DNA of 64,000 bases from Armatimonadota bacterium (GTDB taxonomy: Bacteria; Armatimonadota; UBA5829), in assembly GCA_039679645.1 (NCBI GenBank), contig JBDKUO010000030.1, positions 1 to 64,000 on the forward strand, written 5' to 3'. Numbering within the stretch: position 1 is the first letter of the stretch; every line of letters begins with the position of its first letter. This document shows, piece after piece, positions 1,033 through 17,808 of this stretch. The position numbers and the translations under genes are program-made. The notes under the pieces were generated by a model. That model was not told the origin of the DNA. It did no database searches and saw only the letters and a program-made list of their open reading frames with translations.

Positions 1033-1085
1033 CAGGTGATTGGCCGGGCCTAACGCACGAGTTACAAAAATGTGAACGCCTGATA

Positions 1086-1212
1086 GGTGACGATCTCCGA
1101 ATCGTCACCTTAATGCCGAATTGGGGTCTCCGAACCCCGTAACCCTTGCTGGAATAGCCGAATTCGGAGATCCGGCACTGGTTCTCGGGTAAGGATTCGG
1201 AGATCCTTACCC
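1086..1212. repeat. Array of four hairpins sharing the loop CTCCGA
   Basis: Four inverted repeats lie within 127 bases. At 1086-1109 the arms GGTGACGAT/ATCGTCACC flank CTCCGA. At 1123-1138 GGGGT/ACCCC flank CTCCGA. At 1157-1176 GCCGAAT/ATCCGGC (one mismatch) flank TCGGAG. At 1187-1212 GGGTAAGGAT/ATCCTTACCC flank TCGGAG. TCGGAG is the reverse complement of CTCCGA, so all four have the same loop while the stems differ completely yet stay paired. This is seen directly. The role is unknown: a dispersed hairpin family, an RNA element or a protein-binding array. Confidence 0.85.
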
Positions 1213-1326
1213 ATCATACGAGTGATGTATTTGAACATCGTCATAAAACGTTCATTCGTGCGTTCGCCCTGGGTGATTAGCATACATCCCTTATTAAGGC
1301 TGAACAAACCTGCGTCGTTCCCGCGA

Positions 1327-1369
1327 AATCCAGAGACCCGTCTTTAGTCGGAGTGCAGGTTTCTGGATT
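1327..1369. repeat. Imperfect inverted repeat near a CCCGCGAAA motif
   Basis: AATCCAGAGACC (1327-1338) pairs with GGTTTCTGGATT (1358-1369) with one mismatch. The flanking text (TTCCCGCGAAATCC, GGATTCCCAG) resembles the widespread intergenic repeat that pairs CCCGCGAA with GGATTCC in many bacteria. It fills the gap before the tautomerase gene. No coding potential is seen here. Confidence 0.55.
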
Positions 1370-1415
1370 CCCAGTCAAGCTGGTAATAGTTGCAAACTCT
1401 ATCTTGCGCCCTGAG

Positions 1416-4667: not shown

Positions 4668-6506
4668 TTAGTCCTTTTTGATGTATTTCTTCTTTGTCTT
4701 GTTGAAGCCTTGGCTGGCCTTTTTCTCGTCATAGAGCCACTGGTCCGACTTGCCGCGGGTGTGGAAGGCGTGATATGAGCTCAGGATCGACGCGACCAGG
4801 AGCCTCGAGCACCGTTTCACTATGTTGACCTCGTTGACCAGGCGCGGGAAGTCCATCCCCTGCTTGCCGAGTATCTCGACTATCACGTCGAAGACGGGCA
4901 TGTCTGTGCTCTCGAACCTTGCCTTCAGGTCAAGCAGTTCCAAGGAGCGGTTGGTGTCTATTCCCAGCACCGTGTCGGACTCTTCCTGGCGTCTGAAGCG
5001 GTATTCGCCCGGCTTGGCAGTCTTTTCGATAGTAAAGACAGCGCCTGAGACCTCAGTGATCTCTTTGTAGAAATCCTTGAGTCCGTAGATCAGGCGGGTC
5101 GTGTTGTTCACATAGCAGGTTTTGCGCTTGCCCTCGTCGATCAGCACGATGGGGATGATCTCAGGCTCAGTGCCGAAGAAGTCCGGGTTGATCTGGCAGA
5201 GCGGGAATGTCCCCGCGATCTTGTGATGATATTTGAGCACGCATCTCTGAGACTCACCGCTGGGCTGATACATCGTGCGAGCCGGGTCCTCATCGGTCAC
5301 GTCCTCGACCAGAGGGTCGTAAATAGCCGATTTCAGGTTGCCGTCGAAGCCGTCCTCTTCCAGCATCTGGTCATATACGTCGCCTTCGGGGGTCTCAAAC
5401 GGCACCGAAGCAGGCACAACCAGTGAGGTCGGAACTTCCTTGACCTCGTCCGGGAAGACCTCGACCTTGCCCCAGCGTGTGCCGCCGAGCCACATGATCC
5501 GCTCCTCGTCCTTAAGGGCATCTTTGAGGCTCTCCAGAGCGCCTGCATAGGCAGAATCCTCCGGTCCGACTTCCAGGACCGCATCCAGCAGTTCCTCGGC
5601 TGAGGCGCTGCCGTTCTTGATGATCATAGCGATGACCTCTTCTTTGTCGGTGTCGGTAACACTGACAGGGCCCTCGGCCTCTTCCTCTTCAGCCTCCATA
5701 GGCAGTTTGGAGAGCTCCTCGGCAACCTCGGCCAGGGTCTTGGTAAAGTCCTTTTCAGCCGACGCAGGGTATATTTTCTGATCCGAAAGGACCAGCACCC
5801 GTTCATCGGCGAGCACCGCGCAGTAGAAGTCTACCGCGTCAAAGTCCTCGGCAAGCTCGCGCCAGGCAAGCAGCGCCATTATCTTGAACGGGACCGGTTC
5901 CTTGCAGTCTTTGGCAATCGCAGCGGCAGCATCGGCGAGCTTGTCTATGTCCCATTTCGCCGCCGGGCACAGCTCGGTAAAGTGATCCACCTGCTCCTGA
6001 GAGAGAAAGCTGTCAAAGACCACGTCGTCCTCATCATCGGATGTGACATTCAGCAGCCATGACGCCAGGCCGTATTTGTTGTCTCCTGCCGCAAAAAACT
6101 TCTCCTTGTCCGTGAGTATCCTGGGCAGAGCCTGCTCATAGTGCTCAGCCGACTGGCTGTAGATCTGGGAAAGCTCCTGTGCCAGGACCTCCAGCGAGAC
6201 CGGCACTCCGGCGGACTGCACGACCTCAGCAAGGACTCGCTCGAAGGGTCTGTGCACGTCGCCGTAACGCGATGCCGCCGCCCACCGCCTGTCAACCGTC
6301 TCGAAGCGGCTGCTCTGAGCCATTACGTCGCGCATAAGGCGCATGGTCACACCCTCGACCTCGACTCCTTTCATAACCTGCCTGAGCTTACCGGCCTGGC
6401 TCTTACCGAGCAGGCTTAGATAGGCCTTGTCCGCGAGAAAACGCCTGGCGCTCTCCCGCGCAATATCCGCTTTATTCAGCGTGGTTGCTGATTCGTTCAC
6501 TATCAT
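4668..6506 (-). CDS. Hypothetical protein with two predicted winged-helix regions
   Basis: 612 residues, no signal peptide or membrane segment. Residues about 88-155 (FERVLAEVVQSAGVPVSLEVL... ending KYGLASWLL) look like a HARE-type winged helix: an early helix pair, then a strand closing on a YGLA-like motif. A second similar unit is suggested at about 289-365 (EEVIAMIIKNGSASAEEL... GTRWGKVEVF). An acidic linker (EAEEEEAEG) separates them. The C-terminal 230 residues are unassigned and end in a Lys-rich tail. It is 36 bases downstream of hepT. A role in transcription or DNA binding is inference only. Confidence 0.65.
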   Translation of the reverse strand: MIVNESATTLNKADIARESARRFLADKAYLSLLGKSQAGKLRQVMKGVEVEGVTMRLMRDVMAQSSRFETVDRRWAAASRYGDVHRPFERVLAEVVQSAGVPVSLEVLAQELSQIYSQSAEHYEQALPRILTDKEKFFAAGDNKYGLASWLLNVTSDDEDDVVFDSFLSQEQVDHFTELCPAAKWDIDKLADAAAAIAKDCKEPVPFKIMALLAWRELAEDFDAVDFYCAVLADERVLVLSDQKIYPASAEKDFTKTLAEVAEELSKLPMEAEEEEAEGPVSVTDTDKEEVIAMIIKNGSASAEELLDAVLEVGPEDSAYAGALESLKDALKDEERIMWLGGTRWGKVEVFPDEVKEVPTSLVVPASVPFETPEGDVYDQMLEEDGFDGNLKSAIYDPLVEDVTDEDPARTMYQPSGESQRCVLKYHHKIAGTFPLCQINPDFFGTEPEIIPIVLIDEGKRKTCYVNNTTRLIYGLKDFYKEITEVSGAVFTIEKTAKPGEYRFRRQEESDTVLGIDTNRSLELLDLKARFESTDMPVFDVIVEILGKQGMDFPRLVNEVNIVKRCSRLLVASILSSYHAFHTRGKSDQWLYDEKKASQGFNKTKKKYIKKD

Positions 6507-17520: not shown

Positions 17521-17808
17521 GTTCACACCCAGACGTTTTCCTAATTGAAACAAGTAGGCAACCCCAGGGCGAACGCATCTTAAGAAATGTGTCTCCGCTT
17601 TGTTCGGGCAGATTTAAAATCTGCGCCGAAAAGGGCCAAATGGCATCTCTGATGCCACTACCTAACACTTATGTGCAGGCTTAGTGGTTAACGGTATCTC
17701 AAATCCCGAGATTGCCCCAAAGGGGCCAGATTGCAAATCTGCCCCAACAGAGAGGTTCACATCCAGACGTTTCCTAATCGAAACAAGTAGGCTGCCCCTA
17801 CTAGGGGC
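17521..17808. repeat. Direct repeat pair enclosing four or more short palindromes
   Basis: GTTCACACCCAGACG and TTTTCCTAATTGAAACAAG at 17521-17559 recur with a few changes at 17755-17792. Between them are palindromes: GCAGATTT-A-AAATCTGC (17608-17624), TGGCATC-TCT-GATGCCA (17641-17657) and GGGG..CAGATT-GCA-AATCTG-CCCC (17722-17745). GCCCCTA-C-TAGGGGC (17794-17808) covers the nuoN stop. The 341-base gap (17460-17800) contains no gene seen. It looks like a mosaic of small dispersed repeats; the last palindrome could end nuoN transcription. Confidence 0.7.

Follow-up and report, generated by a model that had tools for sequence, protein, structure and literature searches.

The closest described counterparts of the repeats analysed here are REP and REPIN (BIME) sequences and their RAYT transposases, known as REPtrons (PMC3116915, PMC6006769, PMC8266576). 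Published REPs have a GTAG or GTGG foot and flank RAYT genes; recognition is limited to one strand and involves the loop or an irregularity of the stem, and one REP class has atypical feet, such as CnGA (PMC6006769, PMC8266576). In some systems, the loop is known to matter for recognition. The hairpins of the present family, which share the loop CTCCGA, resemble REPtrons in several ways: they are short, present in many copies outside genes, either singly or as inverted pairs, they carry a tetranucleotide foot on the 5' side of one strand, and the same hairpins flank a RAYT gene. They differ from canonical REPs in the foot, which is TGAT rather than GTAG or GTGG, and in the fixed six-base loop, and the full unit has two hairpins per end, four in all. 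The host order belongs to Armatimonadota, a phylum unnamed in the REP/RAYT papers searched for that name, and the literature that we searched contained nothing on REPINs inside MITEs or on RAYTs in Armatimonadota. The ends of IS200/IS605 elements and their miniature derivatives are similar in that their Y1 HUH transposase reads a tetranucleotide foot together with a subterminal hairpin. In contrast, NF047646 identifies the transposase found here as a RAYT, its resemblance to IS200 transposases is weak, and the hairpins are paired at both ends.

The window analysed, a 64,000-nucleotide stretch, belongs to contig C30 of a 3.41-Mb genome (G000). Within its positions 1086–1212, where the initial annotation had placed them, lie four CTCCGA-centred hairpins in the order +, +, −, −, with the hexamer on the plus strand at 1095 and 1128 and on the minus strand at 1164 and 1197. 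We conclude, with a probability of about 0.9, that these hairpins together form a non-autonomous, REPIN-like mobile element belonging to the REP/RAYT class. The module comprises 136 bases and reads TGAT-hp1-hp2 / hp3-hp4-ATCA (Table 1). The single A·C mismatch that hairpin 3 shows on the plus strand corresponds to a G·T wobble on the minus strand. The stems had been described as fully different, which overstates their divergence: hairpin 1 (GGTGACGAT) and hairpin 4 (GGTAAGGAT) have GGT--GAT in common, and an apical GAT/ATC is present in most units. By itself, the hexamer shows no enrichment in the window (33 observed versus 28.5 expected), unlike palindromes centred on it: hairpins 1 and 4 are the only hairpins in the 64 kb with a six-base loop and a stem of at least 9 bp.

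Table 1. Window coordinates of the four-hairpin module and of the element that surrounds it
Feature	Positions	Strand	Sequence and basis
Left target duplication copy (10 bases)	1035..1044		GGTGATTGGC; 9/10 identical to the right copy GGTGATTAGC
Left arm of outer MITE-like element	1045..1080	+	Terminal inverted repeat CGGGCCTAACGCACGA, family form CAGGGCTAACGCACGA; from copy alignment and end search
5' foot of first REP	1081..1085	+	TGATA; G −4 and A −3 in 52/55 units, T −2 in 55/55
Hairpin 1 (hp1)	1086..1109	+	GGTGACGAT(CTCCGA)ATCGTCACC; 9-bp stem, 10 counting the outer A-T
Hairpin 2 (hp2)	1123..1138	+	GGGGT(CTCCGA)ACCCC; 5-bp stem
Hairpin 3 (hp3)	1157..1176	−	GCCGGAT(CTCCGA)ATTCGGC on the minus strand; 7 stem positions
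Hairpin 4 (hp4)	1187..1212	−	GGGTAAGGAT(CTCCGA)ATCCTTACCC on the minus strand; 10-bp stem
5' foot of inverted terminal REP	1213..1216	−	TGAT
Whole REPIN-like module	1081..1216		Two hairpin pairs in inverted orientation; from the arm-less copies L011, L012 and L013
Right arm of outer element	1217..1271	+	Terminal inverted repeat 1256–1271, CAGGGCGAACGCACGA on the minus strand
Right target duplication copy	1272..1281		GGTGATTAGC

In agreement with the initial annotation, the pairing of the copies supports the view that hairpin structure is under selection, with the loop conserved and changes in the stems compensated. A pattern that leaves four positions per stem side unconstrained yielded 22 distinct units; of their 88 opposed free positions, 73 are Watson–Crick paired and a further 7 are G-U, compared to a mean of 38 and a maximum of 51 after shuffling. 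In 17 aligned full modules, 97.9% of cells are paired, a level reached by 0 of 500 shuffles; five pairs changed on both sides, and columns 10/25 contain A-T, G-T and G-C in 8, 4 and 3 copies, respectively. Because the cells count related sequences, the shuffle numbers overstate independence, and stronger evidence comes from how varied the stems are between species. The units also share a one-sided 5' foot, GAT, in which T(−2) is invariant and A(−3) and G(−4) each deviate in three of 55 units. The tetranucleotide TGAT lies within the last six bases ahead of the stem in 42 of the 55, none of which has a GTAG or GTGG foot. With DNA parameters, every single hairpin folds as drawn, hairpin 3 in its family form. 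RNA parameters also allow the entire module to form one long hairpin in which hairpin 1 pairs with hairpin 4, as is expected for an inverted REP pair.

The stretch 1050–1250 matches 32 places in its own genome at 74–100% identity; these include opposite-strand and partial matches to the same copy, which leaves about 30 places. The initial annotation had called for a search for the pattern in the genome and its relatives, and this revealed an excess: relative to a reversed-pattern control, ATCTCCGAAT occurs 75 times genome-wide versus 3, and GGNNNNGATCTCCGAATCNNNNCC 36 times versus 0. A 400-kb sample of the same genome contained no CTCCGA palindromes; its stretches were chosen with knowledge of the copy positions and mostly miss them, and it can serve only as a background for other hexamers. 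Aligning the copies distinguishes three levels: full four-hairpin modules (TGATAGG...CCCATCA, 136 bases), found both with and without outer arms, half modules (L022 and L025; L023, L024 and L026) and single hairpins (L028 and L029). All three forms are seen, in either orientation. Many copies have only one outer arm, and L011, L012, L013, L020 and L023–L030 have none; in L015, L019 and L021, the segment between the repeated TTCGGAGATCC of hairpins 3 and 4 has been lost. Related copies are present in three genomes of the same genus (G002, G003 and G004), and weaker matches in G011, G016 and G017. The strict pattern GG-N4-GATCTCCGAATC-N4-CC occurs in 7 of the 19 genomes of the order. A search of 291 genomes of the phylum added just one, G156, where a single unpaired match is probably due to chance. 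Ordinary repeat spread had been discounted at the outset. The roughly 30 dispersed copies of a mobile repeat contradict this, although the spread is of a kind that requires hairpin structure.

Two explanations that involve no mobility of the hairpins as DNA can be weighed against this distribution. Terminators of transcription acting in both directions, or intergenic hairpins of another sort that multiplied by chance, would be short and strong, as these are, and would lie mostly outside long ORFs; indeed, 25 of 30 copies are clear of any ORF of at least 100 aa. However, the hairpins are not followed by a T-run, their loop stays the same as the stems vary, and the foot is asymmetric, all of which makes this explanation barely credible. 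A structured RNA, either a small RNA or a regulatory leader, kept for its fold would account for the constant loop and compensatory stems, and the RNA folds far better than shuffled sequences (z about −6). Against this, an Rfam search returned only a sub-threshold, chance snoRNA match, the whole, half and single-hairpin copies occupy unrelated places, and G004 has an empty site. DNA transposition accounts for the one-sided foot and for the RAYT flanks, and single-stranded DNA is also compatible with G·T pairs. Because the repeats occur in either orientation and in whole, half and single-hairpin forms, an RNA role is not needed, and we consider it very improbable.

The REP/RAYT assignment draws on a candidate enzyme in G004. 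Contig C19 of that genome encodes a 179-aa protein that is identified as a REP-associated tyrosine transposase by NF047646 (104 bits versus a cut-off of 80). It also matches Y1_Tnp, contains the HUH-type motif THVH (HxH) and, when combined with its orthologues in a profile, matches Escherichia coli TnpA-REP (4er8) at 1.3e-10. Upstream of the gene lie a TGAT foot and an hp1-like hairpin, GGGTGGCGAT(CTCCGA)ATCGCCACCC, followed by an hp2-like GGGAT(CTCCGA)ATCCC. Downstream, in inverted orientation, are an hp3-like GCGGAT(TCAGAG)ATCCGC and an hp4-like GGTTGACGAT(TCGGAG)ATCGTCAACC; one of these four hairpins thus has the loop CTCTGA instead of CTCCGA. The spacers of the window module and the G004 locus are alike as well (GTGCCAGTTGGG and ATGCCGAATTGGGG; CTGGCTTTAGG and CTGGTTCTCGG). 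Since hairpins of the same kind flank the G004 RAYT in the same order and orientation, the window module resembles such a locus reduced to its two ends, with no gene between them.

G004 provides the single case of an intact RAYT with CTCCGA hairpins. RAYTs in the other repeat-carrying genomes are flanked by other families, and G011, which carries weaker repeat matches, gave no RAYT match. In close relatives, the orthologous RAYTs lie between paired hairpins of their respective types, and so do most of the more distant RAYTs inspected; among 80 RAYT loci of named genomes, the search for CTCCGA palindromes yielded only one chance-like 6-bp case. In the genome of the window itself, no intact RAYT with CTCCGA flanks was found among the PF01797 and RAYT matches, and the RAYTs on contigs C60 and C66 carry other hairpin families. 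Contig C68 (L186, about 5500–5790) contains a RAYT relic: about 29 codons at 52% identity end in a stop, the central part of the gene has been lost, and on both sides lie collapsed CTCCGA-type hairpins. This counterpart of the G004 RAYT is dead, and RAYT-driven movement of the CTCCGA family has therefore probably stopped in this genome.

The initial annotation knew of no named family with this loop, yet REP/REPIN elements served by a RAYT (TnpA-REP) transposase have this same architecture. A short, many-copy palindrome that is mostly extragenic, an inverted REP pair and a RAYT flanked by the same REPs (in G004 only) were all found. As every REP/REPIN feature tested is present except for the GTAG/GTGG foot, the CTCCGA family is best filed as a REP/REPIN variant.

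The module sits within a second element, at window positions 1045–1271, that has inverted ends CAGGGCKAACGCACGA. The general form of these ends is CAGGGC(T/G)AACGCACGA, with CGGGCC at the left end in the window. While the target duplication of the window copy is imperfect, other copies have perfect 10/10 duplications (L002, GGTGATAGAG; L003, AAGCTGGACT). An intact-looking ISAs1-type IS is present on contig C12 of G004 (L297, 1334–2617; 375-aa ORF, PF13808 at 1.1e-32), with ends CAGGGCAATCGCATG and a 10-base target duplication AATGAGAGCA. The ends of the two elements are similar, not identical (CAGGGCGAACGCACGAA in the MITE, CAGGGCAATCGCATGAA in the G004 IS), and both make 10-base duplications. 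Given this resemblance in ends and duplication length, the outer element is most plausibly a MITE of the ISAs1 type, and an ISAs1-type transposase may have moved it. It resembles ISAs1-family MITEs in its CAGGGC... ends and 10-base duplication, but it carries as cargo a REPIN that belongs to another, unrelated transposition system, and no ISAs1-type transposase was found in its own genome. In G004 the site is empty: the same two genes are separated by a short intergenic stretch in which GGTGATATAA occurs once and the element is lacking.

These observations raise the alternative that the hairpins are merely the inside of a DDE-type MITE and spread purely with the CAGGGC-ended element, unconnected to any RAYT. 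The outer inverted ends and 10-base duplications at the window, L002 and L003 would fit, as would the similar ends and identical duplication length of the G004 IS. The copies without any outer arm (L011, L012, L013, L020, L023–L030) would not, nor would the same kind of units beside the G004 RAYT or the RAYT relic in the genome of the window. We regard this alternative as highly unlikely and retain the REP/RAYT reading for the module, with the MITE as a probable second vehicle.

Other repeats and possible insertions were noted in the vicinity and elsewhere in the genome. Past the right end of the outer element, window positions 1272–1412, up to a second CGCCCTG (then AGTGATATAATAACG), form an extra stretch with no counterpart at the empty site of G004. 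This stretch contains an inverted repeat (AATCCAGAGACC / GGTTTCTGGATT) and is possibly part of another insertion. At 17565–17750 lies a second REPIN-type repeat (TTCGGGCAGATT-TAA-AATCTGCGCCGAA, TGGCATC-TCT-GATGCCA and CAGATT-GCA-AATCTG) beside an CAGGGCGAACGCATC end, with a direct repeat of roughly 45 bases on both sides; similar hairpins flank an intact RAYT of the same genome (G000:C60:23061–23600). On contig C7, L110 (about 195 bases around 1501–1695) is a third CAGGGCGAACGCATCA-ended MITE-like element, with such ends also at C25 and C26. Its internal hairpins have look-alike loops (CTTT/CTTC) and are possibly another REP-type cargo.

We propose that a RAYT, as a single-strand DNA transposase, would recognize a strand-specific hairpin by the TGAT foot on its 5' side, a variable stem, the apical GAT/ATC and the CTCCGA loop, and would cut and rejoin the repeats while they are single-stranded. 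The module would represent both hairpin-bearing ends of a RAYT locus minus the gene, with hp1-hp2 as the left end and hp3-hp4 as the inverted right end. Judging from the flanks in G004, an enzyme of the G004 type probably binds and moves the CTCCGA module, and the constancy of foot and loop suggests that these are what it reads. If the enzyme needs the fold and the loop rather than the stem sequence, the stems could change by compensated substitutions, with loop and foot held constant. In the window, the module also rides inside the putative ISAs1-type MITE, whose insertion duplicated 10 bases of the target. At least two REPIN families of this genome adjoin CAGGGC-type ends; a regular partnership, in which RAYT-moved REPINs are packaged as ISAs1-type MITE cargo in this lineage, is nevertheless a tentative and rather doubtful idea.

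Our findings place the REP/RAYT system in a phylum that has received little study, in a form whose foot (TGAT) departs from the usual one and whose hexaloop is fixed. The copies form a natural covariation data set that contrasts what a RAYT may need (foot, loop and fold) with what it may ignore (stem sequence). A dead RAYT with about 30 surviving repeats, together with a REPIN in a putative ISAs1-type MITE, bears on how repeats persist without their own enzyme. If the REPIN-in-MITE partnership is real, one repeat would have two routes of spreading and could outlast its RAYT.
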